From Ramlibacter monticola (lineage in GTDB: Bacteria; Pseudomonadota; Gammaproteobacteria; Burkholderiales; Burkholderiaceae_C), in NCBI RefSeq assembly GCF_016722785.1, contig NZ_JAEQNE010000001.1, positions 1,054,001 to 1,118,000 on the forward strand: a stretch of DNA of 64,000 bases, given 5' to 3'. Within the stretch, counting starts at the first letter, position 1. Each line of letters opens with the position of its first letter. Below are positions 1 to 20,277 of the stretch, piece after piece. The translations under genes were made by a program, and so were the position numbers. The notes below the pieces were generated by a model, which saw only the letters and a list, made by a program, of their open reading frames with translations, was not told where the DNA came from and did not search any database.

Positions 1-129
1 GCCATTGAGGAACACCACGCTGAAGCGTTCCCGCAGCGCCCGGGCCAGCGCGAAACTGCGCGTGAGGTGCCCGATGCCCAGCGAGTGCTGGCAGTAGAAC
101 AGGAGGTTCGGCGGGGAAGATTCAGTCAT
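1..129 (-). CDS. Glycosyltransferase N-terminus, MurG/MGT-like (partial, runs off left edge)
   Basis: Only the first 43 codons are inside the window. The start ATG lies at 129-127 and overlaps the end of the ABC exporter gene by 8 nt, so translation is probably coupled. The visible N-terminus has a beta strand (LLFYCQHS) followed by a glycine-rich loop GIGHLTR and a helix. This is the N-terminal Rossmann signature of GT-B glycosyltransferases of the MurG/GT28 or MGT type. It resembles the start of the protein at 9152-10408 (ILIYSHDTFGLGN), so the operon seems to carry two members of this family. The sugar donor and acceptor cannot be told from this fragment. Confidence 0.72.
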   Translation of the reverse strand, partial: MTESSPPNLLFYCQHSLGIGHLTRSFALARALRERFSVVFLNG

Positions 130-1876
130 GGCGTCGTTCCATCAGGGTCCAGGACACCGGCGCGGGGACGGGGGCGCCAGCGATGCGCCCCTGCTCCAGC
201 GTCAGGACCCGGTCGTATCCCGCCAGCGAGGCGGTGTCGTGGGTAATCACGATGAGCGTGCGGTCGCGGTGGACCCGCATCACCGCTTCGAGAATCACGC
301 GCGCGGACCGCTGGTCCACCGCGGCCGTGGGCTCGTCCATCAGCAGGACCGCCGGCTCCTTGATGAGGGCCCGCGCCAGGCACAGGCGCTGGCGCTGGCC
401 GCCCGAGAGGGTGGCGGCGCGCTCGCCGAGTTCGGTGTCGTAGCCCTCGGGCAGGTCGATCACGAATTCGTGCGCGCGGGCCGCGCGGGCGGCCGCCTCG
501 ATGTCTTCCATCGAGGCCTCGGGCCGGCCGTAGGCGATGTTCTCGCGCACCGAGACGGCGAACAGCATCGGCTCCTGCGGCACCACGCCAAGCACGCGGC
601 GCAGGCTGGCGCGCGTGTAGCGCCGGATGTCGACGCCGTCGATCAGGATGCGTCCGGTGCTCGGCTCCGCCAGCCGCAGCAGCAGGTTCATGAAGGTGGA
701 CTTGCCGGCGCCCGAGGCGCCGACGAGGGCGACGTGCTCGCCGGGGGCGATGCGCAGGTTGAGGCGGTCCAGCACCTTCCTGCCCGGCTGGTACTCGAAG
801 CTCACGTCCTCGAAGGTGATCTCGCCCAGGGTCTGCGTGAGTTCCACCGCATCGGGCGCATCTGCGGCGTCCGGCGCGATGTCGAGGATCTGCGCCACCC
901 GCTCGGCGCTGATGCCGGCGCGCGAGAACTTGCCGGCCAGGCGACCCAGGTCGCGCACCGGCTTGTAGAGCGCGGTCACGTAGGTCACGAACACCAGCAG
1001 CTCGCCCGGCGTCAGCCGGCCCGCCAGCACCTCGCGCGCGCCCAGCAGCACGGTGATGGCGGTGCCGAGAGCGGTGACCACGGCGATGGCGCGCACGATG
1101 GCGCCATTGACCCGCGCGCTGCGCATGCCGCTTTCGTAGTTGGCGGCGATCTCGCGCCGGAAGCGCTCTTCCTCTTCCTCGTGGCGGCCGAAGGCCTGCA
1201 CCAGCGCGATCTGGCTCAGGACCTCGTTCAGGCGCGAGGCCATGCGGCCTTCGTGCTTGCGCTGCTCCCGGGCCGCGGACTTGACGCGGCGGTTCAGCAC
1301 GAAGATCACCCCCAGCAGCGGCGGCAGCGTGGCGGCCACCGCCAGCGCCAGCGGCGGGTTGAGCCAGAACATCACGGCCAGCATCGCCAGCACCGTGGCG
1401 ATGTGGCGGCCCAGCGTCAGCAGCCAGTCGCTGAACATGTCGCGCAGCAGGTTGGTGTCGCCCGCCACCTTGGTGATCAGCTCGCCGACCCGCGTGGTGC
1501 GGTGGTGCGCCAGCGACAGGCGCTGCAGGTGCGCGAACAGCTCGCCGCGCAGGCGCCAGGTGATGCGGTGGCCCACCTTGGCGCTGGTGTAGAGCTCCAG
1601 GTAGGACAGCGCGCCCGAAGCCAGCGCGATCGCCGCGATCGACAGCGCGCAGGCCACCAGGGCCGGCCAGGCGCCCAGCCCCAGCAGCGGCTGCAGCATC
1701 GCCATCGAGGGCGGCAGCGGCTTCGCCAGCAGGATGTGGTCGAAGATCAGCTTCATCGGCCACGGCACCAGCAGGTCGCACAGCACCACGCCGCCCAGCG
1801 CGAGCGCGGCCACCAGCAGCGCCAGCCGCTGTTCCCACAGGCACTCGGCGATGAGGGTGCGCATGCGGCGGTTCAT
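122..1876 (-). CDS. ABC exporter, fused permease and ATPase (MsbA-like)
   Basis: This 584-residue half transporter has the usual length of a homodimeric type IV exporter. Hydrophobic segments lie within residues 1-310. The ATPase domain carries Walker A GASGAGKST at about 386-394, the ABC signature LSGGQ at about 490-494, Walker B LLMDEP at about 511-516 and the switch histidine near 546. The D-loop reads TAAVD rather than the common TSALD, a mild variation. All catalytic residues are present. It starts at ATG 1876 inside the stop of the upstream phosphotransferase gene (ATGA overlap) and overlaps the next glycosyltransferase by 8 nt. Its place in a glycosyltransferase operon suggests it flips or exports a lipid-linked or otherwise amphiphilic glycoconjugate across the inner membrane. 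The substrate is inferred only from context. Confidence 0.93.
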   Translation of the reverse strand: MNRRMRTLIAECLWEQRLALLVAALALGGVVLCDLLVPWPMKLIFDHILLAKPLPPSMAMLQPLLGLGAWPALVACALSIAAIALASGALSYLELYTSAKVGHRITWRLRGELFAHLQRLSLAHHRTTRVGELITKVAGDTNLLRDMFSDWLLTLGRHIATVLAMLAVMFWLNPPLALAVAATLPPLLGVIFVLNRRVKSAAREQRKHEGRMASRLNEVLSQIALVQAFGRHEEEEERFRREIAANYESGMRSARVNGAIVRAIAVVTALGTAITVLLGAREVLAGRLTPGELLVFVTYVTALYKPVRDLGRLAGKFSRAGISAERVAQILDIAPDAADAPDAVELTQTLGEITFEDVSFEYQPGRKVLDRLNLRIAPGEHVALVGASGAGKSTFMNLLLRLAEPSTGRILIDGVDIRRYTRASLRRVLGVVPQEPMLFAVSVRENIAYGRPEASMEDIEAAARAARAHEFVIDLPEGYDTELGERAATLSGGQRQRLCLARALIKEPAVLLMDEPTAAVDQRSARVILEAVMRVHRDRTLIVITHDTASLAGYDRVLTLEQGRIAGAPVPAPVSWTLMERRHD

Positions 1877-3123
1877 CGCGCGCCCTCCACCTGCGCCTGC
1901 AGCGCCAGCGCTTCGGCATAGGCCAGGCGCCGCTCCACCTCGGCGCGCCAGTCGGGGACCTGGAACACGAAGGCGCGGCTGGCGCGCAGCAGCTGCTGCA
2001 CCGCCAGGTGCCAGGCCAGGCGGATCGGGCAGAACAGCCGCGGCGCGTGCTGCGCGTAGGCGCGGATCCAGGGTGTGCCCAGCGATTGCGCGTCCGCTTC
2101 CTCCGGCAGGCGCACCAGGAAGGCGGCCAGGTCCTGCATCGGGTCGCCGAGCACGAACTCGTCGAAGTCGAACAGCACGATGCGCCCGCCGTCGAACCAG
2201 GCCTGGTCGACGTGGAAGTCGCCGTGGAGCGTCACCGGCGCATGCGCCGGCAGCTGCGAGGCCGCCTGCTCGATGGCCGCGACCGTGCCGTCGGCGCGGC
2301 GCGCGAGCGCCGGCAGCGCGCGGACGATCTTCTGGCGCCGGCGGTGCGCCTCGACGAGCCAGTGGGCGGTGTCGTGCCGCCGGGCGCCGGCGAGTTCGCT
2401 CGGGACCTCGTGCACGGTGGCGATGGCGCGCGCCAGGGGCTGCAGCCAGGCGTCGCCGCGGTGCAGCCAGTCGCGCAGTGGCGTGCCGGTGGCGGCGTCC
2501 TGCCAGAGCGTGCGGTCGCCGGCGGAATACCGCAGGGGCCGCGCCACCAGCGGCGCGCCGGCGTCCTCCTGCGCGCGGGCCCAGAACCAGTCGAAGCGGC
2601 GGTGGATCGCCGCGCCGCTCTCGTCGCTGAAGGTCTTGGCGTACAGGGCGTCGCCGCGCGCTCGCGTGTAGCGCAGGGTGGCGCGGCGTTCCGGTTCGTA
2701 GCGCACCGCCTCCACGGCCCGCGCGGCCTCGCCCCAGAAGGGGCGCGCGGCCTCGGGATCCAGCAGGCGCGGCAGTTGCGGCAGGCCGGCGTCGTCGGGC
2801 CAGGCCCACAGCAGCATCGCGAGGGCGGGCAGCGGGGTCGCGTTGCCGGCGGCCAGCGGCGCGGCGGCTTCGACGCCGGCGCGGCAGACCTTGCCGTAGC
2901 AGCGCAGGGTGCGCGGGGCCGCGCCGCCGGCGTCCCGCACTTCGACCTCGTAGAGGGCGAGCAGGGGATGCGGGTCGCGCCGCCGGGAGGCGCTGCGGTG
3001 TGCCTTGGCGATGCGCACCGCCTCGACGGTGCCGTGCGGCGCGAGCAGCGGTTGCAGGTGGGCGCGCATCTGCTCGGGGTCGAGGCAGGTCTCGACGGAG
3101 CGGTCCAGGTCGAGGTTCAGCAT
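1873..3123 (-). CDS. Phosphotransferase family protein (APH/choline kinase fold), copy 2
   Basis: The protein has 416 residues. The C-terminal half carries the kinase-fold catalytic loop LHGDFHVDQ, followed by the metal-binding strand LFDFDEF; these are the Brenner-type and DFG-equivalent motifs of aminoglycoside phosphotransferase-like enzymes. The usual loop Asn is replaced by Gln here, whereas the neighbouring paralogue has Asn. The N-terminal half is poorly conserved and may bind the acceptor. The start at ATG 3123 overlaps the stop of the upstream paralogue by 7 nt. Known enzymes of this fold phosphorylate small molecules such as choline, sugars or antibiotics. In this operon a sugar or lipid-head acceptor is more likely than antibiotic resistance, but that is inference. 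Confidence 0.82.
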   Translation of the reverse strand: MLNLDLDRSVETCLDPEQMRAHLQPLLAPHGTVEAVRIAKAHRSASRRRDPHPLLALYEVEVRDAGGAAPRTLRCYGKVCRAGVEAAAPLAAGNATPLPALAMLLWAWPDDAGLPQLPRLLDPEAARPFWGEAARAVEAVRYEPERRATLRYTRARGDALYAKTFSDESGAAIHRRFDWFWARAQEDAGAPLVARPLRYSAGDRTLWQDAATGTPLRDWLHRGDAWLQPLARAIATVHEVPSELAGARRHDTAHWLVEAHRRRQKIVRALPALARRADGTVAAIEQAASQLPAHAPVTLHGDFHVDQAWFDGGRIVLFDFDEFVLGDPMQDLAAFLVRLPEEADAQSLGTPWIRAYAQHAPRLFCPIRLAWHLAVQQLLRASRAFVFQVPDWRAEVERRLAYAEALALQAQVEGAR

Positions 3124-4487
3124 GCGAGCTCCGTGGCGGCGTGGCCGCGGGCCAGGTCGGTCGCCAGGCGGACGAGGCGCGGCGCGATCTCGAAGCGGCC
3201 GGGCTTCAGGTTGACGACGCAGCGCCAGGCACGCTGCGTCAGCAGGTTCCAGGCGACGGACCAGGCGAGCGCGGCCGGCTCCGGCCGCTGGCCACCGGCG
3301 TCCACGTAGCCGGCGATCAGGCTGCGCCACGCCGCCTGTTCGCGCTCCGCCGGGGCGCCCTCCAGCAGGGCGCGGTAGATCGCATCGGCCACGCAGGCCC
3401 CGAGTTCGAGCAGCGCCGGGCCGCGGCGCAGGCCGTCGAGATCGATCAGCGCGACCCGCGCTCCGGCGGGCCGGTCCTCGACCAGGATGTTGCGGCCGTG
3501 GAAGTCCCCGTGCAGCGTGCTCGCCGCCGCCCCGTGCGCGAGGGCGGGCCAGCCCTCCTCCAGCGCCTGGGCCGCGGCGCCCAGGACGGACGCGCCGAGG
3601 ACGGGCGACAGGACGCGCACGACTTCGGCCAGGCGTTCGCGCATCCACTCGGGCGTCACCTCGCGGTGCGTCACCGTCGGCGTGGCGTGCAGCGCGGCCA
3701 GCTGCGCACCGACCGCGGGCGCGCAGGCGGCCTGCAGCGCGGGCGGCGCGTCGAGCAGCGGCTGGCCGGGCATTCCCTCCTGCCAGGCCGTCTCGGTCGG
3801 CGCGTGCCACAGGAGCGCGCGCGGCGTGCGCAGCCGTCCCCCGCGCCAGGCGGCGGATCCCTGCAGCTGCAGCAGCAGCGCGTGGATCGTCGCGCCATCG
3901 GGCTCGCGCCCGGCCTTGCAGTAGACCCGCTGGGCCTGCATGGCGATGCCGTCGTGCCAGCGCAGGTCGACCCGGGCGCACAGGCGGTGCTCGGGCACGT
4001 ACTGCGCGATCTCGAGCTCGCCCGCGTGGATGGCGCCGGGGTCGGCGCCGAGGGCGCGGGCCAGCTCCGGCAGCACGTGCTCGCGCAGGACCGAGGGATC
4101 GGACAGCGTCCGCGGGGCAGGCAGCTTGGGATCGTTGGGCCACCACCAGGTGAGCATGTCCAGCGCCGGCAGCCAGTGCAGGCCCGGCCCCGCGGGCGAG
4201 GGGCCCAGCGCGGTGGCGCTGCTGCGCACGATGCGGTCCGCGTCGCGGTCGCCGCACAGGCGCGCGGCCACGTGCTGCTCGAAGGCGTTCCAGCCGCCGT
4301 CGCGCAGCGCCAGCCGGTAGCCGAGCGTCGCATTGCGGCCGGGGCGGTACTTGACGCGGTCGACGTGGCAGGCGTCGACCTGCACGCCGTGCGGGCGCAG
4401 CACGTCCGCGAAGGCCTGCGCCATCGCCGCGGGGTCGAGCGCGACGGCCAGTTGCGGCAGCACGGGATCGTGGGGCAGCCGGTTCAT
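3117..4487 (-). CDS. Phosphotransferase family protein (APH/choline kinase fold), copy 1
   Basis: This 456-residue protein is paralogous to the next gene. The catalytic loop LHGDFHGRN matches the HGDxxxxN consensus exactly and the following strand LIDLDGL supplies the metal-binding aspartate. A shared upstream motif (WWWPNDPKLP here, WAWPDDAGLPQLPRLL in the other copy) and the phrase Y-x-P-E-R/H link the two copies. It begins at ATG 4487 in a 4-nt overlap with the heparinase-like gene and ends in a 7-nt overlap with its paralogue. This copy keeps all expected catalytic residues and is the better candidate for an active kinase. The acceptor is unknown. Confidence 0.82.
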   Translation of the reverse strand: MNRLPHDPVLPQLAVALDPAAMAQAFADVLRPHGVQVDACHVDRVKYRPGRNATLGYRLALRDGGWNAFEQHVAARLCGDRDADRIVRSSATALGPSPAGPGLHWLPALDMLTWWWPNDPKLPAPRTLSDPSVLREHVLPELARALGADPGAIHAGELEIAQYVPEHRLCARVDLRWHDGIAMQAQRVYCKAGREPDGATIHALLLQLQGSAAWRGGRLRTPRALLWHAPTETAWQEGMPGQPLLDAPPALQAACAPAVGAQLAALHATPTVTHREVTPEWMRERLAEVVRVLSPVLGASVLGAAAQALEEGWPALAHGAAASTLHGDFHGRNILVEDRPAGARVALIDLDGLRRGPALLELGACVADAIYRALLEGAPAEREQAAWRSLIAGYVDAGGQRPEPAALAWSVAWNLLTQRAWRCVVNLKPGRFEIAPRLVRLATDLARGHAATELAC

Positions 4488-6541
4488 GCCGTCTCCACCC
4501 GGGCGAGGCCCAGCGCCGTGCGCAGCTGCGCGCCCGGATGGGAGACGGCCCGCAGCAGGCGGCCCTGGGCGTCGCAGCGCCAGTGCAGCCAGCGGCCGCT
4601 GAACTGCCAGTCGCCGATCCGCCAGCCGGCCTGCGCCACGCCGTGGGCATGGAACCAGCCGTCGTGCAGGTCCCCGAGTTCGATGCGCAGCGCGGTGGCC
4701 TGCGCGCCCTCGGCGCCCATCACCGGCAGGTCGGTCACGCGCAGCGTCGGCGCGCTTTCGCGCGAGGGGAGCAGCACGGTAGCGAAGCTGGTGCAGCTCG
4801 CCCGCGCGCTCGTCAGCAGCGCCGGGGCCGCGCGCTTGTGGCCGTAGTCGCGCGAGACCCAGCCGGCCGCCAGCCCGGTGTGCTGGCCGGCGCGGCGCGG
4901 CTGGGCGGCGACCAGCCCGGGGCTTTCCAGCCGCACGCAGGCGTCGTCGCCGCAGAGGACGGCATGGTCCTGCGCGTCGGGGCCGAGCTGGAAGCGCAGG
5001 GCGTAGTCGTGGTGCTCCTGCGCCTCCAGCCAGTCGGAAACGATCCAGTAGCGGCGGTCGACGAACACGATGCAGCGCTCGTGGACCGCATCGTACTCGT
5101 GGCTGGCGCAGCGCCCGTGCAGCAGGTCCAGGTGGGCGCCGCTGCACGATTCCAGCAGCGCCGTGTCCGGGGCAGGACCGGAAATCTTGTGCCGCACCGA
5201 TCCGGCGGCGTGCCGCGAGGCGTCCTTGATGGCCTTGGGCACGTAGCGCGTCTGGTTGCGGCCGTCGACGCACACCGTGTTGTGCGCCGCGGTGCCGCGG
5301 AAGTGCACGCGCCAGTTGCAGGGATCTGCCGGCGTGGTCGCTTCGCTGTACGTGTAGCGGCCCGGGTCGACCACCAGCGGGCGGCCGAAGGCGGCCAGCT
5401 CGAAGGACAGGGCGTCGAAGTGGCCGTGGTTGCCCTCGCCCAGCGGGCCGCAGTCGAACACGAGATGCTGCGCGTCGGCGCCGTCCCAGTCGCTGCGCAC
5501 CACGTGGTAGCCGCTGGCCGGGAAGTGCGCGACGCGCTCCCGCGGCGGCCGGCCGTGCCGCCCGCCGCTGGCGACGAAGCGCATGTCCTCGCGCCCGAAC
5601 AGGGCCGCGCCCTGCGCCAGCAGCGGCAGGAAGCCGCGCACGTCGCCGTCGGACAGGCTGGGCGCCACGCCCGCGGGCTGGTGCACGTGCAGGCTGAAGG
5701 CGAGCGCGGCTTCGAGGGCGCGGTCCAGCGCGGTGGGCACGGCATGTCCGTTGTCCGCGGCGAGATGGCGCACCTGCAGCCAGTTGCGCAGGGCCAGGTG
5801 GTGGTAGTCGGTCGACAGCTCGCAATGCACGCCGTCCGGCAGCAGGTCGGCCTGCACGTTGGCCAGCGTCTCGGCCAGCGCGAACTCGCGCCAGTGGGCG
5901 GCGCGCCCGAACTCGGGGAACACCACGCCGGCCAGGAAGATCGCCAGCAGTTCCAGCGTGCGGTGGTTGCGCTTGGGCGTCAGGTGGGCGCACAGGTACT
6001 CGACCTGCAGGTGCAGCGAGTGCAGCAGCCGGCGGAAGAACGCCGCATCGATGGGCGCCGGCCGCGCCGCGTCCAGCACCAGCGCATGCAGGCTGTAGAT
6101 CCAGTTCTGCACGCGCCGCCCCGTCACGTCCGCGGCGATGAAGCCGGGCGGCGTGACCTGCATCCAGCCGTCGACCAGCCGGACCCAGCGCCGCAGCGCC
6201 GGGGCGTCGCCCTCTTCCTGCCAGAGCTGGGCGAGGCCCACCGCGTAGTAGAACTTGTGCAGCAGGATGTGCCACTCGACGTCGCGGCTCGGGTTGGCGA
6301 GCCAGTCCACCGCGTCGCCGAGATGGTGCGTCTCGCCGTTGAACTCGAAGCGGCCCGCCATCACGCCGGCCAGCTTTTCGGGCCGGCACTCGTCGGCATC
6401 GACGATGGGGGCGAAGCGGATGCCGCGGTCGCCCTGGAAATGGGCCAGCAGCGCCGCATCGTCGAGAGCTTCCCAGGGCGAAAGGAACAGCGCGTCGGTC
6501 CGCGCTTCGGAGCGGACCGGCGACAGGACAGCGGCGTTCAC
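4484..6541 (-). CDS. Heparinase II/III-like protein
   Basis: The 685-residue protein has the two-part layout of heparinase II/III and alginate-lyase-like proteins. An alpha/alpha-toroid N-terminal part contains the family-typical stretches NWIYSLHAL and ELSTDYHHLALRN. A beta-sandwich C-terminal part begins near GHFDALSFEL, followed by FRGTAAHNTVCVDG, the hallmark of the Hepar_II_III domain. The Tyr/His pair in DYHHLA and the histidine of GHFDAL are candidate catalytic residues. The start is GTG 6541, in a GTGA overlap with the glycosyltransferase gene. No signal peptide is visible, which is odd for a polysaccharide lyase and points to action in the cytoplasm or export by another route. In polysaccharide operons such enzymes trim or remodel the polymer; the polymer here is unknown. 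Confidence 0.85.
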   Translation of the reverse strand: MNAAVLSPVRSEARTDALFLSPWEALDDAALLAHFQGDRGIRFAPIVDADECRPEKLAGVMAGRFEFNGETHHLGDAVDWLANPSRDVEWHILLHKFYYAVGLAQLWQEEGDAPALRRWVRLVDGWMQVTPPGFIAADVTGRRVQNWIYSLHALVLDAARPAPIDAAFFRRLLHSLHLQVEYLCAHLTPKRNHRTLELLAIFLAGVVFPEFGRAAHWREFALAETLANVQADLLPDGVHCELSTDYHHLALRNWLQVRHLAADNGHAVPTALDRALEAALAFSLHVHQPAGVAPSLSDGDVRGFLPLLAQGAALFGREDMRFVASGGRHGRPPRERVAHFPASGYHVVRSDWDGADAQHLVFDCGPLGEGNHGHFDALSFELAAFGRPLVVDPGRYTYSEATTPADPCNWRVHFRGTAAHNTVCVDGRNQTRYVPKAIKDASRHAAGSVRHKISGPAPDTALLESCSGAHLDLLHGRCASHEYDAVHERCIVFVDRRYWIVSDWLEAQEHHDYALRFQLGPDAQDHAVLCGDDACVRLESPGLVAAQPRRAGQHTGLAAGWVSRDYGHKRAAPALLTSARASCTSFATVLLPSRESAPTLRVTDLPVMGAEGAQATALRIELGDLHDGWFHAHGVAQAGWRIGDWQFSGRWLHWRCDAQGRLLRAVSHPGAQLRTALGLARVETA

Positions 6542-7887
6542 GTGGTGGCCTCGCGCGAGGAGGCCGCCGCCGGGGGTTGCTCCGAGGCGCGCAGCTGGCG
6601 CAGGAACAGGTCGCGCAGCGCCGCGGTGGTCTGGCGCGAGTCGAAGCGCTCGCAGATGCGCTCGCGCGCGGCGCCCGCCAGCCGCGCATGCAGCTGCGGT
6701 TCGGTCAGCAGCAGTTCGATGGCCGCGGCCAGCGACTCCGGGCTGCCGTCCACCAGCATGCCGTGCACGCCGTCGTCGATCATCTCGGGGATGCCGGAGA
6801 TCGGCGTGGAGACCACCGGCACGCCCATGGCCATGGCTTCGGCCAGCACGTTGGGGAAGCCGTCGCGGTCGCCGTCCTCCATCACGCGGCAAGGCAGCGC
6901 GAACACCGAGGCGCCGCGGTAGACCTCGCGCAGGCGGTCCTGCGGGACGGCCGCGTGCAGCTGCACGCACTCCGCCAGCCCGAGCCCGGCGATCTGCGCG
7001 CGCAGGGCGGGGCCGGCGCTGCCCTCCTCGCCCACGATGACGCAGCGGAAGGACACGCCGCGCCGGCGCAGCAGGGCGCAGGCGTCCACCAGGCGGTCGA
7101 AGCCCTTCTTCTCCACCAGGCGGCCCACCGCCAGCAGCAGCGGCGCTTCCTCGCGGGCCAGCCGGACGCGGGGCGAGAACCAGTCGGTGTCCAGCCCGTG
7201 GTAGATGGCATGCACGTCGTCGGGCCGCGGATGGCGGGCCCGCAGGACCTCCGCGTTGGCGCAGGTGCAGGTGGCGACGAAGCGGGCCGCGCCCAGCTTG
7301 CGTTCGAGCAGCCGGCCGGGGTTCAGCTCCGTCTGGTAGATGTCCTTCGCATGGGCGGTGAAGCTGAAGGGCAGGCCCGAGAGGCGGCTGGCGAACCAGG
7401 TGATCGTCGCCACGCCGTGGCAGAAGTGCCCGTGCAGGTGCGACACGTCCCCGGCCCGCAGCACGGCCTGCGCGATCCAGCCGGCCTGCAGGAATTCCTT
7501 GATGAAGACCTTCTTCAGCGCGAAGGGGGCGCCCGCCTCCCGCGAACGGTGCTTCCACGCCAGCCCGAAGGCGGCGCCCAGCGTGGCCAGCCACGCCAGC
7601 GGACGCCGGCGCGCCACCTCGGCGTGCGCGGCCCAGAAGGTGCCCAGGTTGTCGCGCAGCCACTGCCGCAGGGTGGTGGCGGACAGCGACGTCGCCTCGG
7701 GCAGGTAGGTGAGCGGCGCGCGGATCGCGCCGACGACCGGATGCACGACCGGCTCGCGCTCGTCCTTCACCGAATACAGGCGCATCTCCAGGCCGAGGCG
7801 CTCGAGCTGGTGGATCTCGTTGGCGATGAAGGTCTCCGACAGGCGCGGGAAGCCGTTCATCACGTAGGCGACCTTGCTGCGCTTCAT
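6538..7887 (-). CDS. Glycosyltransferase family 4
   Basis: This 449-residue GT-B enzyme starts with the acceptor-side motif NGFPRLSETFI, typical of WcaL-like and colanic-acid-type GT4 proteins. The donor-binding half shows LLLAVGRLVEKKGFDRL and the E-x7-E region DGFPNVLAEAMAMGVPVV, which holds the nucleotide-sugar ligands. It is clearly related to the next gene, so an ancient duplication within the operon is likely. It starts at ATG 7887, overlapping the previous stop as ATGA, and its own stop overlaps the GTG start of the heparinase-like gene. A cytoplasmic enzyme that adds one sugar to a growing glycan is expected. The sugar specificity cannot be read from sequence alone. Confidence 0.92.
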   Translation of the reverse strand: MKRSKVAYVMNGFPRLSETFIANEIHQLERLGLEMRLYSVKDEREPVVHPVVGAIRAPLTYLPEATSLSATTLRQWLRDNLGTFWAAHAEVARRRPLAWLATLGAAFGLAWKHRSREAGAPFALKKVFIKEFLQAGWIAQAVLRAGDVSHLHGHFCHGVATITWFASRLSGLPFSFTAHAKDIYQTELNPGRLLERKLGAARFVATCTCANAEVLRARHPRPDDVHAIYHGLDTDWFSPRVRLAREEAPLLLAVGRLVEKKGFDRLVDACALLRRRGVSFRCVIVGEEGSAGPALRAQIAGLGLAECVQLHAAVPQDRLREVYRGASVFALPCRVMEDGDRDGFPNVLAEAMAMGVPVVSTPISGIPEMIDDGVHGMLVDGSPESLAAAIELLLTEPQLHARLAGAARERICERFDSRQTTAALRDLFLRQLRASEQPPAAASSREATT

Positions 7888-9137
7888 CGGGCGGCCTCCA
7901 GCAGGTCGCAGTGGGTGCCGCAGACGTGCGACGGCTCCAGCAGCTGCATCAGGGTGCGCAGGTTGGCGTCGTTGTCGAAGGCTTTCGCGACCGTGGCGCG
8001 GGCGCGCCGGCCGAAGGCCGCGGCGAGCTCCGGGCTCTGCAGCAGGCGCTCGATCCCGTTCGCCAGCGCCAGGGGCGCGTCGGGCTCGACCAGCAGCCCG
8101 TTCACGCCGTCGCGCACGAGTTCGGGGATGCCGGAGACCCGCGTCGCCACCACCGGCAGGCCCATGGCCATCGCTTCCAGCAGCACGTTGGGGATGCCGT
8201 CGCGGTCGCCGTCGGCGGCGATGCGCGAGGGCTGCACGAACACGGTGGCGCGGGAATAGCGCTCCAGCACCTGGTCGCGCGCCAGCTTGCCGGCCAGGTG
8301 GACGTGGCCCGCGAGGCCGGTGCGCAGGATGTGGTCGGCCAGTGCATCGTGCTCCTCGCCGTAGCCGACGATCTCGCAGCGCACCCGCTTCCCGCGCTGG
8401 TGCAGCAGGCGGCAGGCCTCCAGCAGGGTGTCCAGCCCCTTCTTCGCGCGCAGGCGGCCGACGGCCACGATGAGGGGGGCGTCCTGCTCCTGCGGGCCGG
8501 TGCGCCGCGACGGGTGGAACACCTCGCGATCGACGCCGTGGTACATGAGCCGGATGGCGGCCCGCGGCGCGATCGCGGCGAGGGTGGCCCGGTTGGCCTC
8601 GGTGCAGGTCACGGTGAAGCGCGCCGCGTTCAGCTTGCGCCGCAGGTCGGCCGGCCGCGACAGGTAGATGTCCTTGGCGTGCGCCGAGATCGAGAACGGG
8701 ATCCCGCTCATGCGGGAGGCCAGCTGCGCGATGTCCGTCGGGCCGTTGATGAAGTGGACGTGCAGGTGGCCGACGCCGTCGCGGCGCAGCTGCGCGGCCA
8801 GCCAGCCGGCGCGCAGGAAATCGCGCCAGCCGCCCTGCCCCCGCCGCAGCGCCTGCCCCAGCGACTGCAGGTAGCCGATCGGCTCCGAGACCGCCAGCGA
8901 CGCGTGGCGCGCCAGCATTTCGCGCAGCGTGTGGCCGGACGGCACGCGCGCCACGGGCGAGCGGACGCGGGCCACGGCGTCGTGCGTGACGTCGTCGGTC
9001 GGCGCATCCAGCGCGTACAGGCGCAGCGCGAGGCCCCTGCGCTCGAGACCCAGGATCTCTTCCAGGATGAAGGTTTCGGACAGCTTGGGCCAGACGCGGA
9101 CCAGCACGCCCAGAGGGGCGGAGGAATGCATGTTCAT
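7884..9137 (-). CDS. Glycosyltransferase family 4 (paralogue of the downstream gene)
   Basis: The 417-residue protein has N-terminal VWPKLSETFILEE, a central SAHAKDIYL motif shared with the neighbouring paralogue, LIVAVGRLRAKKGLDTL in the donor domain, and DGIPNVLLEAMAMGLPVV containing the E-x7-E residues. The two most plausible start codons are ATG 9137 and ATG 9131; the first is used here. A 14-nt gap separates it from the upstream glycosyltransferase gene and a 4-nt ATGA overlap joins it to the next one, so all are likely co-transcribed. The donor and linkage are unknown. Confidence 0.92.
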   Translation of the reverse strand: MNMHSSAPLGVLVRVWPKLSETFILEEILGLERRGLALRLYALDAPTDDVTHDAVARVRSPVARVPSGHTLREMLARHASLAVSEPIGYLQSLGQALRRGQGGWRDFLRAGWLAAQLRRDGVGHLHVHFINGPTDIAQLASRMSGIPFSISAHAKDIYLSRPADLRRKLNAARFTVTCTEANRATLAAIAPRAAIRLMYHGVDREVFHPSRRTGPQEQDAPLIVAVGRLRAKKGLDTLLEACRLLHQRGKRVRCEIVGYGEEHDALADHILRTGLAGHVHLAGKLARDQVLERYSRATVFVQPSRIAADGDRDGIPNVLLEAMAMGLPVVATRVSGIPELVRDGVNGLLVEPDAPLALANGIERLLQSPELAAAFGRRARATVAKAFDNDANLRTLMQLLEPSHVCGTHCDLLEAAR

Positions 9138-9151
9138 CGGGGGTCCTGCGT

Positions 9152-10408
9152 TCAGGCGACGGTGAAGACGATCTCGCCGGCGCGGCGCGAGCGGATGCGC
9201 ATCGGCGACGTGGTGCGCTGCTCCTCGAGGTCGACCAGCGTGCGCAGCGCGCGCGACACCTTGTCCAGGCCGTTCATGGCCTTCAGCCGCGGCAGGGGTT
9301 CGGAGCGGGCCAGCGCATCGAACTGGTGCTGCACCTCCGCCATCAGCGCCGAGGGCGACAGCGCGTCCGGCGACACCATGCGCAGCAGGCCGCGCTCCGC
9401 CATGCGCTCGGCGCGAAGCAGCTGCTCCACGCCGGGCTCGCAGCGCGGCACGATCACGCCGCGGCGGCCGCTGGTGAGGAGCTCGCAGACGGTGTTGTAG
9501 CCGCCCATGGTCACCGCCACGTCGGCGGAGCCGATCAGGGACATCATGTCGTCGCTGAAGGCTTCCACGCTGACCTGGGGCAGGTCCGCCGCGGCGGATT
9601 CGACCGCGGTGCGGTGATGCTCGGGCATCTCCGGCCCGCACACCACGTGCGTGCGCGGCCGGCGGTGGGCGGGCGTGCGCGCCAGCCCTTCCAGCGCGGT
9701 CGCCACGAGGCGGAATCCGTCCTCGCCGCCGCCGGGGGTCACCAGCAGCATCGGCTCGTGCGGGTCCACGCCGAGCGCGGCGCGCACGTGCGCCCGGCTG
9801 CGTTTCGCCGCTTCCCGCGCGATGTAGCCGCAGAAGCGCACCTTGGCGGCCGCGAAGGGCGGGAAGGCATATTCGCGCCGCAGGTCGAAGATCTCGGGGC
9901 TGCCCACGACGAGCACTTCGTCGTAGTAGGTGTCGACGGCCTCGTAGTAGCCGTTCTTCTGCCACACGGAGCGGGTCGCCTCGGCGCTGTCCAGGATGTC
10001 GCGCAGCAGCAGCACGAAGCGGGGCCGGTGCGCCACGCGGGACAGCATCTCCAGCACGCCGGCCAGTTCGTCCTGCACGCCGAAGGGCTTCTTGTCCACC
10101 AGCACGAGGTCGGGCGCGAAATCGAGCGTGGCGCTCTTGATCAGGTTGGCGCGCAGGCGCACCAGTTCGGGCAGGTCCACCGCCAGCGAGCGCGCACCGT
10201 AGCGGCCCGTCGTGTCCCGCGCGAGGCAGGGCAGCTTGACGTAGTCGATGCGCGGCGGAATGCGGAAGGCATGCAGCATCGGGCTGCCCGTGAGCAGCAG
10301 CACCGTGATCTCGGGCGAACTCGCCACCAGGTGCCGCGCGATCTCCAGCATGCGGCGGACATTGCCCAGGCCGAACGTGTCGTGCGAATAGATCAGAATT
10401 CTTTTCAC
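9152..10408 (-). CDS. MurG/MGT-like glycosyltransferase, first gene of the operon
   Basis: The 418-residue protein begins ILIYSHDTFGLGN, the GT28/MGT nucleotide-fold loop. It has a C-terminal GT-B donor site around LLVTPGGGEDG and VTMGGYNTVCELL, the latter matching the glycine-rich donor-binding segment of MurG-like enzymes. An ATG exists upstream at 10531, but the protein similarity starts only at GTG 10408. This GTG has a purine-rich ribosome site (AGAGGCAGG) about 6 nt ahead, so GTG is preferred. It is the first gene of the eight-gene operon and the only one with a sizeable upstream region. Its role is probably transfer of a sugar to a lipid or other carrier. Confidence 0.85.
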   Translation of the reverse strand: MKRILIYSHDTFGLGNVRRMLEIARHLVASSPEITVLLLTGSPMLHAFRIPPRIDYVKLPCLARDTTGRYGARSLAVDLPELVRLRANLIKSATLDFAPDLVLVDKKPFGVQDELAGVLEMLSRVAHRPRFVLLLRDILDSAEATRSVWQKNGYYEAVDTYYDEVLVVGSPEIFDLRREYAFPPFAAAKVRFCGYIAREAAKRSRAHVRAALGVDPHEPMLLVTPGGGEDGFRLVATALEGLARTPAHRRPRTHVVCGPEMPEHHRTAVESAAADLPQVSVEAFSDDMMSLIGSADVAVTMGGYNTVCELLTSGRRGVIVPRCEPGVEQLLRAERMAERGLLRMVSPDALSPSALMAEVQHQFDALARSEPLPRLKAMNGLDKVSRALRTLVDLEEQRTTSPMRIRSRRAGEIVFTVA

Positions 10409-10689
10409 CGGAACCTGCCTCTCGTGGGTGTGAAACTTTGGTGACGGTGACCAAGAGGGCAAGTGGCATGCCACGTCCGATCTGAATGCTGAACGTTGGA
10501 CCGCGTTTCCAAACGTTCGTGAATGCGGCACTGCGACATGACTGGTTGCATGCCCATTACAAGTTGGGGGGGAATCGCACCCACACCGCCTGGGTCAGGA
10601 CACCCAAGACCCACGCAGTGGGGGCAAGCGCCACGGCCTCGCGCTCGCGTTGCAGAGCAGGCGATGAAACCTTTGGTGCTACGAGCTGT
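10409..10689 (-). promoter_or_regulatory. Leader of the glycan operon with two inverted repeats
   Basis: This 281-bp gene-free stretch precedes the glycan operon. It holds a perfect 12-bp palindrome GTGGCATGCCAC at 10463-10474. A near-palindrome, AACGTTGGA at 10492-10500 and TCCAAACGTT at 10508-10517, differs by one inserted base. Both look like operators for dimeric regulators. I see no convincing -35/-10 pair, no tRNA and no riboswitch. The repeats are direct observations; their regulatory role is inference. Confidence 0.45.
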
Positions 10690-11427
10690 TCAGCCGCCGA
10701 GGTACGCGCCGCCGTTCACGTGCATCACCTGCCCCGTGACATAGCGCGCGTTCGGGCCGGCCAGCCAGCACACCGCCGCGGCCACTTCCTCCGGCAGGCC
10801 GGCGCGGCCGACCAGGTTGCGCTGCGCCGCATGGTGGTGCGGCACCTTGGTGCCGACGCGCGCCGTGTCGATCAGCCCCGGCGCCACGCAGTTGACGGTG
10901 ATGCCCTGCGGCGACAGCTCGGTCGCCAGCGCGCGTGTCATGCCCACCAGGCCGGCCTTGGCCGTGACGACGTGCACCCGCCGGCTCGCGCCCGTGTGCG
11001 CGGTGAGCCCGCCGATGTTGATCACGCTCGCCTGGCCGCTCGCCTTCAGCAGCGGCAGCGCCGCCTGCGTGCAATGGAAGGCGCCATCCAGGCACACCCC
11101 CAGCGCGTTGCGCCACGCCTCGAACTCCATGGCCTCGAAAGGAGACTCCTCCCGCACGGCGGCGTTGTTCACCAGCACGTCGAGCCGACCGTAGCGCTGG
11201 CGCACTTCGTCCACCATGGCGTCGACCGCCTCGCGCTCGCTCACGTCGGCCAGGCTGGCGACCGCCTGCCCGCCCTGCGCCTCGATCTCGCGCACCACCG
11301 CCTGGGCCTCGGAGGCGTTGGAGCGCACGTTGACCACCACCGCGGCGCTCTCGCGCGCCAGGGCCAGGGCGATGGCGCGGCCGATGTTGCGTCCCGCGCC
11401 GGTGACGAGGGCGACCCGCGAGATCAT
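10690..11427 (-). CDS. Short-chain dehydrogenase/reductase with altered catalytic site
   Basis: The 245-residue protein has the NAD(P)-binding motif VTGAGRNIGRA, the structural NNAAV motif and the C-terminal pattern VNGGAYLGG of classical SDRs. At the active site the usual Ser is Gly (VINIGG). The YxxxK motif reads VVTAK, so the catalytic Tyr is missing while the Lys is kept. It may use different chemistry, for example as a dehydratase, epimerase or binding protein. It is the last gene of the MmgE/PrpD-TctABC operon (ATGA overlap) and probably acts on the carboxylic acid that the operon imports. The residue replacements are visible in the sequence; their effect is inferred. Confidence 0.87.
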   Translation of the reverse strand: MISRVALVTGAGRNIGRAIALALARESAAVVVNVRSNASEAQAVVREIEAQGGQAVASLADVSEREAVDAMVDEVRQRYGRLDVLVNNAAVREESPFEAMEFEAWRNALGVCLDGAFHCTQAALPLLKASGQASVINIGGLTAHTGASRRVHVVTAKAGLVGMTRALATELSPQGITVNCVAPGLIDTARVGTKVPHHHAAQRNLVGRAGLPEEVAAAVCWLAGPNARYVTGQVMHVNGGAYLGG

Positions 11428-16759: not shown

Positions 16760-17523
16760 ACACAGGCAAAGTCACCCTGGTGGGCGCCGGTCCCGGCGAT
16801 CCGGAACTGCTGACCCTGAAGGCGCTGAAGGCCATCCAGGCCGCGACCGTGCTGCTGGTCGACGACCTCGTGAGCCCCGAGGTGGTGGCCCACGCGCCCC
16901 CGGGCGCGCGCATCATCCAGGTCGGCAAGCGCGGCGGCTGCAAGAGCACGCCGCAGGCCTTCATCGAGCGGCTGATGGTGATGGCCGCGCGCGAAGGCGA
17001 GAACGTGGTGCGGCTCAAGGGCGGCGACCCCTTCATCTTCGGCCGCGGCGGCGAGGAGGTGGAGCACCTGCGCGCCGCCGGCATCCACGTCGAGGTGGTC
17101 AACGGCATCACCTCGGGCCTGGCGGCGGTGACCTCGCTGGGCGTGCCGCTCACGCACCGGGATCATGCGCAGGGCGTGATCTTCCTCACGGGCCATGCCC
17201 AAAGAGGTGCACGCCCGCCCGATTGGAAGGCCCTCGCGGCGACCGCGCGGGATGCGCACCTCACGCTGGTGATCTACATGGGTGTGAGCAGCGCCGGCCG
17301 CATCCAGGAGGAACTGCTCTCGGGCCTGCCCGCCGCGACGCCCGTCGCAATCGTGCAGCGCGCCTCGATGCCGGAGCAGCGCCACGCCGTCACAACGCTG
17401 GGCGGACTGGCCGCCACGATCGAACGCGAAGGACTGGCCAGCCCCTCGGTGATCGTGGTCGGCGACGTGGTGCGCGGCATCGCCGTGGCCGGCCAGGCAC
17501 TGCCGAATTCGCGCGCGGCCTGA
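16756..17523 (+). CDS. cobA: Uroporphyrinogen-III C-methyltransferase
   Basis: The 255-residue single-domain SUMT lacks the CysG oxidase/ferrochelatase part. It shows the SAM-binding motifs VGAGPGDPELLTLKA at the N-terminus, VRLKGGDPFIFGRGGEE near residue 95, and the GITSGLAA and PLTHRDHA motifs that follow. It methylates uroporphyrinogen III twice to precorrin-2 for sirohaem or cobalamin. Sirohaem is needed by assimilatory nitrite and sulfite reductases. It is translationally coupled to ybiB and followed by an intrinsic terminator. Confidence 0.95.
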   Translation: MNTGKVTLVGAGPGDPELLTLKALKAIQAATVLLVDDLVSPEVVAHAPPGARIIQVGKRGGCKSTPQAFIERLMVMAAREGENVVRLKGGDPFIFGRGGEEVEHLRAAGIHVEVVNGITSGLAAVTSLGVPLTHRDHAQGVIFLTGHAQRGARPPDWKALAATARDAHLTLVIYMGVSSAGRIQEELLSGLPAATPVAIVQRASMPEQRHAVTTLGGLAATIEREGLASPSVIVVGDVVRGIAVAGQALPNSRAA

Positions 17524-17544
17524 GCGGCCCAGGGCTTTCGCAAG

Positions 17545-17568
17545 AGAAGCGCGGCAGCCGCTTCTTTT
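17545..17568 (+). terminator. Intrinsic terminator after cobA
   Basis: The stem AGAAGCG (17545-17551) pairs with CGCTTCT (17559-17565) around a 7-nt loop and runs into TTTT. Upstream AAG can pair with the T-run to lengthen the stem. It begins about 20 nt after the cobA stop codon. Confidence 0.75.
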
Positions 17569-17625
17569 GGTTCGCTAGCGGCACGCGTCAACGGAGCCCC
17601 TGCGCACGAACCTGCCGCGGCGCAC

Positions 17626-17749
17626 GACCAGAGCGGGGCTGTCCGGCTCGGCGACATAAAGGAGGAGGCGCGGGCGCCGCGCTCACCCGAGGCGCGGTTC
17701 TCATCCGCGCCGGGGGACAGTCGCAGAGACGGACAGCCCCGCTCTGGTC
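17626..17749. repeat. 20-bp perfect inverted repeat enclosing 84 bp
   Basis: The arms at 17626-17645 and 17730-17749 are perfect reverse complements, both built around GAGCGGGGCTGTCC. The 84-bp interior is very GC-rich and contains no credible gene. The layout resembles a small non-autonomous element or a very large hairpin. No matching transposase is present in the window. Confidence 0.6.
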
Positions 17750-17760
17750 CGGCAAGAAGG

Positions 17761-17813
17761 CCACTGCGCCCCCCGGGCCACTGCGCGCCCCCGCGCCACT
17801 ACGCGCCCCCGCG
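17761..17813 (+). repeat. Three tandem degenerate repeats of about 17-18 bp
   Basis: Units beginning CCACTGCGC, CCACTGCGCG and CCACTACGCG, each followed by a C-run, occupy 17761-17777, 17778-17795 and 17796-17813. They lie directly beside the inverted repeat and upstream of the chemotaxis promoter. Their function is unknown. Confidence 0.5.
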
Positions 17814-17899
17814 GATTCCCTCATCCGGCGGAAATGAACCTCTCCACAGCCTCCCCGTAGATCGGCGAGAACTTTTTCGCGTCCGCGCGACAGCTTTTC

Positions 17900-17926
17900 T
17901 AAGTCATTTTCCTAAGAGGCCGCCAA
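17900..17926 (+). promoter_or_regulatory. Candidate sigma-28 (FliA) promoter
   Basis: TAAG (17900-17903), 15 bp, GCCGCCAA (17919-17926) fits the flagellar sigma-28 pattern TAAA-N15-GCCGATAA with three mismatches and exact spacing. It lies 106 nt ahead of the cache-protein start and would drive the cache-chemoreceptor pair. This is a pattern match by eye, not a measured start site. Confidence 0.5.
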
Positions 17927-17960
17927 TCACGTGATGTGCTCCGCAAACCGGCTTCTGTTC

Positions 17961-18000
17961 CTCCCATTGGGAGATGGGGAGCTCGGCCAGAATGGCCGAG
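17961..18000 (+). promoter_or_regulatory. Two hairpins in the leader of the cache gene
   Basis: CTCCC-ATT-GGGAG at 17961-17973 and CTCGGCC-AGAAT-GGCCGAG at 17982-18000 are consecutive perfect stems in the presumed 5' untranslated region. The second ends 32 nt before the start codon. They could affect mRNA stability or translation. No known riboswitch is recognised. Confidence 0.4.
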
Positions 18001-18032
18001 TTGTATCCAATTCAATCAGAGAGGACGGAGCT

Positions 18033-18503
18033 ATGAAGCACATGAACCATTCGATGCTGCCCCTGGCCCTGGCGGCGGTGCTGGGCGCCGGCGCGGCCCA
18101 TGCCGCGGACGACGCGGCGACGGCCAGGGAAGCCGAGGCGATGGTGAAGAAGGGCGTGGCCTACATCAAGGCCAACGGCAAGGACAAGGGCTTCGCCGAG
18201 ATCACCCGCCGCGACAGCAAGGAATTCCACGACCGCGACCTGTACCTGGCCGCGCACAAGCTCGATGGCACCTGCGTGGCGCACGGCACCAACGAGAAGA
18301 TGGTCGGCAAGAACTTCATCGACATGCGCGACATCGACGGCAAGGAATACATCAAGGAGCGCGTCGACCTCGGCAAGACCAAGACCAGCTTCTACACGGA
18401 CTACAAGTTCGTCAACCCGGTGAGCAAGAAAATCGAGCCGAAGACGGCCTACTGCGAACGACTGGACGACTACGTCGTCTGCGGCGGCATCTACAAGAAG
18501 TAA
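18033..18503 (+). CDS. Secreted single-cache-domain protein
   Basis: The 156-residue protein has an N-terminal signal peptide ending AAHAADD. A cache-type ligand fold follows, with DLYLAAHKLDGTCVAHG and NFIDMRDIDGKEYIKE, the beta-sheet and loop pattern of sCache_2 domains. It has no membrane anchor, so it should be periplasmic. Start ATG 18033 has a strong ribosome site (GGACGGAG). It lies 36 bp ahead of a chemoreceptor gene whose own sensor region has no cache domain. It may therefore be a periplasmic co-sensor for that receptor, which is inference. Confidence 0.85.
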   Translation: MKHMNHSMLPLALAAVLGAGAAHAADDAATAREAEAMVKKGVAYIKANGKDKGFAEITRRDSKEFHDRDLYLAAHKLDGTCVAHGTNEKMVGKNFIDMRDIDGKEYIKERVDLGKTKTSFYTDYKFVNPVSKKIEPKTAYCERLDDYVVCGGIYKK

Positions 18504-18539: not shown

Positions 18540-20183
18540 ATGAAGCTCTGGCAAAAAGTGGCCGTGGCCCCGCTGGTGGCCATGGTGTTCCTGCTCACGC
18601 TGGCGGTGGTCTCCTACGGGGTGCTCGGCATGCAGTCGCGCACCCTGGAGCAGTTGTACAAGGAGCGCTTCAGCGCCTACAAGAGCGCCGCGCAGGCCGC
18701 GCAGGCGATCAGCGAAGTCCACTCCAACGTCTACCGCCTGTTCACCTGGGTCCAGAACCTGAAGCCGGAACAGGTGGAGCGCACGACGGCGGAACAGAAG
18801 AAGAAGATCGACGGCATCGCCGCCACGCTGGAGACCCTGGGCCGGCTGCCGCTGGAGGACGAAGACCGCAAGCTGCTGCAGGACTTGTCGGGGCGGCTGG
18901 CGAAGTACCGCGACTCCATGCTGAAGGCCATCGACCTGAGCACCGTGGACGTGAGCATCGGCGCCATGCAGATGCAGAACGCCGACACCGCCTTCCAGGA
19001 CATGGTGCACGTGTTCGCGCAGCTGGTGGCGCGGCAGGAAGCGCATGCCCAGAGCGCCTACGAGCGCGCCGACGCCGCCTTCAACAAGGCGGTGGCGGCG
19101 CTGCTGGTGCTGGGTGCGCTCGCGCTGGTGATCTCCGCCATGGTGGCGGTCGCGATGAGCCGCAACCTCGTGCGGCCGCTGAAGACGGCGATAGCGCACG
19201 CCGGGCGCATCGCCGGAGGCGACCTGACGGCCGAAATCCGCACCGATGCGTCCGACGAAACCGGCGACCTGCTGCGGGCCCTGGACGGCATGAACCGCGG
19301 CCTGGTCTCCATCGTCGGCCACGTGCGGGCCGGCACGGAGGCGATCTCCGCGGCCTCGACGCAGATCTCCTCGGGCAGCCAGGACCTGTCGCAGCGCACC
19401 GAGGAACAGGCCAGTTCCCTGGAGGAGACGGCCGCGTCGATGGAGGAGTTGACCAGCACGGTGAAGCAGAACGCCGACAGCGCGCGCGAGGCGCACCAGC
19501 TGGCCGCGCAGGCCTCGCAGACCGCGCAGCAGGGCGGCGAGGTGATGCGCAACGTGGTCGACACGATGGGGCGCATCGAAGGCTCCGCGCGGCGCATCAC
19601 CGACATCATCAGCGTGATCGACGGCATCGCCTTCCAGACCAACATCCTGGCGCTCAACGCCGCGGTGGAAGCCGCGCGGGCGGGCGACCAGGGCCGCGGC
19701 TTCGCCGTGGTGGCGGCGGAGGTGCGCAACCTGGCCCAGCGCTCCGCGGCGGCCGCCAGGGAGATCAAGGCGCTGATCGACGAGTCCACCGGCAACGTCG
19801 CGGCGGGCAGCAGCCTCGTCGGGCAGGCCGGCCACACCATGCAGGACGTGGTGGAGAGCATCCGGCGCGTGAGCACGATCGTGGCCGAGATCTCCGCCGC
19901 GACCCTGGAGCAGACGCGCGGCATCGAGCAGGTCAACCAGGCCATCGCCGACATGGAAGGGGTCACCCAGCAGAACGCCAGCCTGGTGGAGGAAGCCTCC
20001 GCCGCCGCGCACGCCATGCGCGAGCAGGCCGGCGACCTGCTCAAGTCGGTCAGCGTGTTCCGGCTGGCGGACCGGCAGGCGGTGACGCTCGCCCCGCGCG
20101 GCCCGGGCGCGGGCGGCCTGCTGCCGGCGCGGCCGGCTGCTTCCGCCGCGGGGCCTCTGGCGCTTGCGCCGGCAGCCGCCTGA
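18540..20183 (+). CDS. Methyl-accepting chemotaxis protein
   Basis: The 547-residue chemoreceptor starts with a transmembrane helix (about residues 9-30), followed by a four-helix-bundle periplasmic domain to about 178. A second membrane helix ([21 protein letters not shown]) leads to HAMP ([18 protein letters not shown]). The signalling domain contains the invariant hairpin tip [22 protein letters not shown]. Methylation-type Glu/Gln pairs occur on both sides ([18 protein letters not shown]). It relays ligand binding to CheA/CheW. There is no C-terminal CheR/CheB docking pentapeptide. It is co-oriented with the cache gene 36 bp upstream, and flhC follows after 94 bp. Confidence 0.95.
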
Positions 20184-20220
20184 CGAGGAAGTGACAATCC
20201 CGGGTCCTGGAGGTCCTTGA

Positions 20221-20242
20221 GCGCCCGGCGCGAGCCGGGCGC
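20221..20242 (+). promoter_or_regulatory. Strong GNRA-capped hairpin upstream of flhC
   Basis: A perfect 9-bp stem, GCGCCCGGC with GCCGGGCGC, closes a GCGA tetraloop. No T-run follows, so it is not a standard terminator. It lies between the receptor gene and flhC, 36 nt before the flhC start, and could be a processing or attenuation element. Confidence 0.5.
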
Positions 20243-20277
20243 CCCGAGGCCTCTCCGGCAGTTCGCGGAGAGGATGG

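Follow-up and report, generated by a model that had tools for sequence, protein, structure and literature searches.

The window analysed here, a stretch of 64,000 nucleotides of Ramlibacter monticola (C1:1054001-1118000 of genome G000, 6.1 Mb), opens within an operon of 11 co-directional minus-strand genes, which we propose to encode a system dedicated to assembling and exporting a glycan that contains uronic acid, with a probability of about 0.5. A secreted uronate-containing glycan is favoured because genes for uridine diphosphate (UDP)-uronates adjoin the cluster, relatives encode an AlgE-type porin and the operon includes a lyase of the glycosaminoglycan or polyuronate type, the heparinase II/III-like protein HEP; a short lipid-linked chain is also compatible with the data. 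The operon runs from GT28a, its first gene, down to the end of EPI at -4240 (position 1 is the first letter of the window and negative numbers lie to its left):

GT28a, 9152-10408, minus strand: GT-B glycosyltransferase with a MurG-like C-terminal half (GT28_C), first gene of the operon
GT4a, 7884-9137, minus strand: GT4 glycosyltransferase (Pfam Glycos_transf_1)
GT4b, 6538-7887, minus strand: GT4 glycosyltransferase (Pfam Glycos_transf_1)
HEP (P0004), 4484-6541, minus strand: heparinase II/III-like protein of PL12-type fold (Pfam Hepar_II_III_N and Hepar_II_III_C)
APH1, 3117-4487, minus strand: APH-fold kinase with an N-terminal extension (Pfam APH)
APH2, 1873-3123, minus strand: second APH-like kinase (best Pfam model EcKL, E=0.006, below cut-off)
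ABC, 122-1876, minus strand: single-chain MsbA-like exporter of type 1 (ABC_membrane and ABC_tran)
GT28b, -1046 to 129 (L004:8954-10129), minus strand: second GT28-like protein (GT28_C), only its first codons lying within the window
PDA (P0010), -1843 to -1043, minus strand: deacetylase-like protein
UGD, -3224 to -1860, minus strand: UDP-glucose dehydrogenase (nucleotide sugar dehydrogenase model TIGR03026, above cut-off)
EPI, -4240 to -3221, minus strand: member of an epimerase family

The initial annotation had described an eight-gene operon with at least four glycosyltransferases, two APH-fold phosphotransferases, a heparinase II/III-like protein without signal peptide and a single-chain ABC exporter, mostly coupled by overlaps of 4-8 nt and lacking the standard genes for a polymerase, a flippase or Wzm/Wzt. 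Its eight genes were all confirmed as minus-strand open reading frames, but the operon comprises 11 genes and continues to the left of the window, where 20 kb were read. The gene assignments held: GT28_C was recognised by Pfam in two transferases and Glycos_transf_1 in the other two, APH1 was identified by Pfam and APH2 keeps the kinase residues in spite of scoring below the cut-off, HEP has both heparinase domains with a negative result in a crude hydropathy test, and the membrane and ATPase domains of ABC lie on one chain. No polymerase, flippase or Wzm/Wzt protein was found among the 11 operon proteins, and the DNA directly left of position 1, where a polymerase or Wzx gene would have counted against the annotation, holds the remainder of GT28b, PDA, UGD and EPI instead. 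Overlaps from GT4a through GT28b measure 4, 4, 4, 7, 4 and 8 nt; the gaps between GT28a and GT4a (14 nt) and between PDA and UGD (16 nt, the largest) are the exceptions, all other operon neighbours overlapping by 4-8 nt. Third-position GC content is 0.93-0.96 across all 11 genes, which, together with a gene order kept in loci where HEP is only 41-50% identical to that of the window, indicates that the genes are real beyond chance. The unit was delimited to 11 genes by its flanks, namely molybdopterin-oxidoreductase and nitrite/sulfite-reductase genes on the opposite strand left of EPI and an SDR gene beyond GT28a. No sigma-70 or terminator consensus was found at positions 9000-11000. Among the NCBIfam models considered (the best 25 at most for each protein, with more existing for GT4a, GT4b and ABC), only TIGR03026, for UGD, scored above its cut-off.

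The core order GT28a-GT4a-GT4b-HEP-APH1-APH2-ABC-GT28b-PDA is found again, apart from local losses and rearrangements, in Burkholderiales, Rhodocyclaceae, methanotrophs and Nitrospirota. Scanning named genomes with the alignment A1 yielded 31 loci, of which 26 carry metagenome-bin titles, from Ramlibacter, Ideonella, Piscinibacter, Polaromonas, Rubrivivax, Rhizobacter, Rhodocyclaceae, Aromatoleum, Methylomonas, Methylothermaceae, Nitrosomonas, Thiothrix, Parvularcula, Nitrospira, another Nitrospirota bin and a plasmid-titled record of Candidatus Manganitrophus. When these loci and G102 were taken together (32 loci), counting a gene only where the DNA reaches it or the gene was found, a procedure that leans towards presence, we obtained GT28a in 26/26, GT4a in 24/29, GT4b in 29/31, APH1 in 32/32, APH2 in 24/27, ABC in 25/27, GT28b in 27/27 and PDA in 24/24. 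Departures from the common order were an upstream rearrangement in L050, no transferase in the 3.4 kb upstream in L049, no GT4a match in L042, L043 and L046, and an ABC gene placed after PDA in L043 and L051. The held-out genome G340 (L063), which had no megablast match to any named locus, carried all nine core genes in order as well as the porin; G350 and G157 do not count as independent, the former matching L028 at 94% and the latter being identical to L041.

Searching 147 relatives with HEP gave matches in 10 genomes, the window's own included, and the module was present in G025, G102 and G103; heparinase-like matches in G120, G142 and G072 were discarded, as they came without the module. 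At E<=1e-60 the HEP family occurs in 6/399 genomes of the order and 3/398 of the phylum (both counts include the window's own), and the cluster is rare, with 5/398 other genomes sampled from the order. In the HEP tree, 15 of whose 32 inner branches were well supported, a single starred group unites the copies of Nitrospirota and methanotrophs, suggesting horizontal transfer.

Some individual records deserve mention. Locus L043 (CP114562.1) is titled as a plasmid of Candidatus Manganitrophus and its matches are split over several frames, consistent with mobility or with sequencing errors. The distant copy in L041 (CAMDKM010000009.1; HEP 50% identical) comes from a metagenome bin titled Bordetella parapertussis, a species label that is probably wrong. 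A divergent cousin of the cluster, with GT28a-, HEP-, GT28b- and APH2-like genes of 28-39% identity, was seen in a genome of the same genus as the window strain (G055, L022:8413-14804).

HEP is the odd feature of the cluster, a lyase-type enzyme within a synthesis operon. Its AlphaFold model (predicted local distance difference test, pLDDT, 90.9) has the (alpha/alpha) toroid and the antiparallel beta-sheet domain of PL12 lyases, and the nearest fold was PL12 heparinase III, HepIII (5jmf; Z 41.7, root-mean-square deviation 4.6, 562 aligned residues, 21% identity). PMC12088678 tabulates Tyr294, His424 and Asn240 as active-site residues of HepC. HEP residues N192, Y246 and H372 align with HepC Asn240, Tyr294 and His424, respectively, when chain index and residue number are taken to differ by 24, which fits all three, and they are invariant in 31/31 aligned HEP sequences, suggesting that HEP is probably enzymatically active. 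Signal peptides were sought with a crude N-terminal hydropathy test (threshold 2.0, start codons chosen by rule), in which none of 35 HEP N-termini exceeded the threshold, compared with 1/22 for PDA and 20/22 for ABC, while three porin controls gave 2.02-2.31. By this test there was no evident signal sequence in HEP, PDA or the kinases, and HEP is probably cytoplasmic. PL12 enzymes are known as secreted proteins. HEP shares with heparinase III (HepC/BT4657) the fold over about 560 residues, the catalytic Asn/Tyr/His and the Hepar_II_III_N and _C domains, and differs from it in having about 21% identity, no evident signal peptide and a gene located in an operon for synthesis, not in a locus for degradation. 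Two HEP genes in tandem were observed in L042, L044, L046 and L051 (Methylomonas fluvii and Nitrospirota); the tree places the second copies together, and they represent either an old duplication or a shared acquisition.

APH1 matched Pfam APH (PF01636) with 56.7 bits against a cut-off of 23.2, and K191, H326, D328, N333, D349 and D351 are kept in 25/25 sequences. Its model (pLDDT 91.8) gave best 50 fold matches with Z 18.5-21.7, mostly over residues 123-456. The first 120 residues run strand-strand-strand-helix-strand-strand, which is the order of a kinase N-lobe; a duplicated N-lobe was considered and is unproven, the BLAST comparison of the halves giving E=2.4 for APH1 and, weakly, 0.013 for APH2. 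The match of APH2 to PF01636 was below cut-off, and K163, D302, D319 and D321 are nevertheless invariant in 22/22 sequences, with Q at the Asn position in 21; its profile also matched maltokinase and APH(2'') weakly, and by tblastn it resembled APH1 genes. ABC is one chain of 584 residues with permease and ATPase domains, and scored best with MsbA-related NCBIfam models, below the cut-off for all of the best 25 of 189. Two exporter subfamilies can be told apart, with identities of 43-94% within type 1, 38-67% within type 2 and 22-34% between them. APH2 was present in 19/19 named loci with a type-1 exporter, whereas a single kinase gene was found in the DNA covered for 5/5 type-2 loci (L045, L047, L050, L054 and G102; several APH1 and APH2 queries, E<=0.01), and L048, with no ABC match, likewise shows a single kinase gene. 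APH2 occurs with one exporter subfamily and was not detected with the other, which suggests that the type-1 exporter may read the APH2 product.

Among the remaining proteins, GT28a belongs to a conserved family (A6) whose best solved profile match is MurG, with a weak match to MGDG synthase, and the best NCBIfam model listed for both GT4a and GT4b was EpsE, below cut-off. PDA had no Pfam match, the NodB/CE4 polysaccharide deacetylase family included, and no solved relative (best profile matches with E of 0.4 or worse); its residues D23, D24, H79 and H83 are invariant in 20/20 sequences, and the name PDA is our guess from this kind of motif. UGD and EPI adjoin the PDA/GT28b side of the operon in the window genome; the nearest solved entries to EPI are 5u4q and 6zl6, the latter of which we take to be a UDP-GlcA 4-epimerase. 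An open reading frame between porin and PDA was noticed in G102 (L017:3109-4722, minus strand); its start presumably reads as nucleotidyltransferase-like, and its product could activate a phosphorylated sugar.

In relatives, a porin gene lies directly downstream of PDA. The 3/3 porins tested scored above the Pfam cut-off for Alginate_exp, and the one tested by sequence matched the AlgE structure 4afk (E=2e-19). The porin was detected by tblastn in 19/31 named loci, all 19 being among the 23 with a PDA match; the match in L042 was partial (29%) because the stretch ends there, and L053 showed no porin in a stretch ending 50 bases past PDA. PF13372 was found at the cluster in 6/6 other genomes (G025, G350, G103, G340, G157 and G102); the new ones among these are G340 and G102, since G025, G103 and G157 are repeats of named loci and G350 lies close to L028. 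In contrast, the porin gene (PF13372) is nowhere in the assembly of the window genome. Local DNA comparison with the porin-positive locus of Ramlibacter alkalitolerans (L025) gave two collinear blocks (L025 ~17511-18314 and 19719-20500), separated by 1.4 kb in L025 but by only some 30 nt in the genome of the window strain. The second block extends about 47 nt into the PDA reading frame of that genome, where the C-terminal end GRRESAHSLEPGMTLNF matches the end of the L025 porin, ARRDPARSIELGMTVNF:

Porin remnant, L003:18157-18203 (about -1843 to -1797): the last ~15-17 porin codons, fused in frame to the PDA gene

The collinear blocks with 1.4 kb missing and the matching C-terminal ends indicate that the porin gene is, by all appearances, deleted in the window strain and its last codons fused to PDA, although a misassembly could also account for its absence. 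Release of the product may be blocked in this strain, or the product kept in the periplasm, and the loss offers a natural test of the role of the porin.

Taken as an assembly line, the operon could work as follows. UGD and EPI would make UDP-GlcA and UDP-GalA, from which four cytoplasmic GT-B enzymes (two GT28-like and two GT4) would assemble a chain of uronate and hexosamine on an acceptor, the hexosamine perhaps being deacetylated by PDA, and HEP would cut the chain in the cytoplasm, for length control or for removal of stalled chains. APH1, and APH2 where present, would phosphorylate the glycan as a mark of the end of synthesis, the fused ABC exporter would carry it over the inner membrane and, in relatives, the AlgE-type porin would let it out. 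The working model for the kinases is WbdD, which ends chains before ABC export of the O9a O-antigen; this is an analogy and no homology is claimed. A bolder version, in which the cluster represents a distinct, horizontally spread secretion route for a glycosaminoglycan-like uronate polymer made wholly in the cytoplasm, with PL12-type internal trimming, APH phosphate caps read by the fused ABC exporter and exit through an AlgE-type porin, and without polymerase, flippase or membrane synthase, is tentative and on balance doubtful.

Several observations weigh against a uronate glycan system of this kind. UGD or EPI was near the cluster in only 9/31 named loci (L025-L029, L031, L038, L041 and L045), some stretches ending too early, so that uronate may not be universal. 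ABC is absent in L029, none is shown in L053 and only a 96-residue piece is found in L031, while L043, L045 and L051, all with a PDA match, show no porin after PDA (the L051 stretch ends 1.3 kb past it). MsbA-type exporters are known to serve lipids or short glycans, not long polymers. The link between APH2 and the exporter is suggestive only, since three of the five type-2 loci belong to one clade and shared ancestry confounds it; the stretch ends directly after ABC in L050 and after GT28b in L047, and as APH1 and APH2 are homologous to each other, what looks like a loss of APH2 could equally mean that no duplication took place. The fold matches listed for APH1 did not include WbdD, an absence from the list that excludes nothing. 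Global pairwise alignment did not place the junction of the porin deletion, for which the evidence consists of local matches and translations. Finally, the substrate, product and mechanism, that is, chain length, acceptor, sugars and kinase target, are what we infer from the genes, and the substrates given for the kinases and the deacetylase are guesses.

The initial annotation had suggested a phosphorylated glycolipid or short glycan exported by the MsbA-like transporter. Such a product, a phosphorylated glycolipid or short lipid-linked oligosaccharide flipped by ABC, agrees with the MsbA-related models that scored best among those listed, with the GT28a profile matches to MurG and, weakly, to MGDG synthase, and with the lack of a polymerase in the operon; however, 19/31 named relatives encode an AlgE-type porin along with the cluster, and a glycosaminoglycan/polyuronate-type lyase would be of little use on a short glycolipid. 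These two points and the UDP-uronate genes leave the glycolipid less supported and, in our view, rather unlikely, a short lipid-linked chain being still compatible. Salvage or turnover, in which HEP, PDA, the kinases and the histidine phosphatase of some loci recycle a cytoplasmic uronate glycan that the transferases resynthesise, would fit the absence of an evident signal sequence in HEP, PDA and the kinases and the position of the phosphatase between APH1 and APH2 in 6/31 named loci. We consider it distinctly unlikely, because four glycosyltransferases and an exporter-type ABC protein indicate synthesis, and the 11 operon proteins showed no importer, glycoside hydrolase or TonB receptor.

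It is also conceivable that HEP is not a lyase and acts as a polymer-level uronate C5-epimerase, making iduronate-type residues before export like dermatan sulfate (DS) epimerase. Its fold is also that of human DS-epimerase 1 (6hzn, Z 26.8), a destructive lyase would be unexpected in a synthesis operon, HEP being probably cytoplasmic, and the tandem copies in L042, L044, L046 and L051 would fit this function. The PL12 lyases are much closer, however, with Z 41.7 vs 26.8 and a profile E of 6e-50 to HepIII, DS-epimerase not being among the profile matches listed, which makes an epimerase improbable. The least probable explanation is that the cluster forms part of an ordinary Wzx/Wzy or Wzm/Wzt pathway whose remaining genes lie elsewhere. 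Genes of PF02397, PF13440 and PF04932 do exist in the window genome, either at a great distance or on other contigs, but none was near the cluster in 7/7 cluster-bearing genomes (nearest at ~137 kb; other such families, Wzx/Wzy ones included, were not searched genome-wide), and the cluster has its own exporter as well as, in 6/7 of these genomes, a porin. Wzx, Wzy, Wzm/Wzt and initiating transferases were likewise missing among the 11 operon and seven flanking proteins.

The proposed uronate glycan system can thus be set beside known pathways. Alginate secretion involves the porin AlgE, an AlgD-type dehydrogenase and the lyase AlgL; relatives of the window strain similarly have a porin homologous to AlgE encoded together with a UDP-sugar dehydrogenase and a lyase of the polyuronate type. 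In contrast to alginate secretion, there is no GT2 synthase among the 11 operon proteins, an ABC exporter stands in its stead, the lyase is of another family and probably cytoplasmic, and the porin is gone from the window genome. MsbA/HepA/ChvA-type glycan exporters are single-chain proteins with transmembrane and nucleotide-binding domains, like ABC, which differs from them in scoring below the cut-off of the listed models and in its neighbour genes. According to PMC3482155, WbdD phosphorylates O-antigen chains and so terminates them, in a system that depends on an ABC transporter; cytoplasmic glycan synthesis and the presence of kinases and an ABC exporter in one operon are common to both, whereas here the exporter is fused and not split into separate Wzm/Wzt permease and ATPase chains, the kinases are of APH type, no methyltransferase was found and relatives have an AlgE-type porin. 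The sheath and stalk loci of iron bacteria were also compared and set aside, since the genes described or cited for them (PMC11412304, PMC13386937, PMC8250860, PMC4643136) are different, namely the GT8 gene lthB, known from a reference title, and the sfz and xag genes together with BcsB-like proteins. Searches of the open-access literature revealed no characterised locus of this gene content, in line with the initial annotation, which could match the pathway to no described system: the parts belong to known families, and the combination matches none of the systems described there.

A cytochrome b561-like gene was additionally seen, for no evident reason, between GT28a and GT4a in four named loci and in G350:

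Cytochrome b561-like genes, between GT28a and GT4a: L026:288-830, L028:6819-7316, L032:6876-7373, L035:6804-7337 and L061:3952-4455

If the proposed function is true, the cluster would represent a further way of secreting an extracellular sugar polymer, beside the Wzx/Wzy, Wzm/Wzt and synthase-dependent systems, and a possible bacterial source of glycosaminoglycan-like material, in which enzymes of the heparin-lyase and antibiotic-kinase types would serve biosynthesis. Carriers of the cluster include lineages of nitrifiers and methanotrophs (Nitrospira, Nitrosomonas and Methylomonas), for which the nature of the matrix polymers is a practical question.

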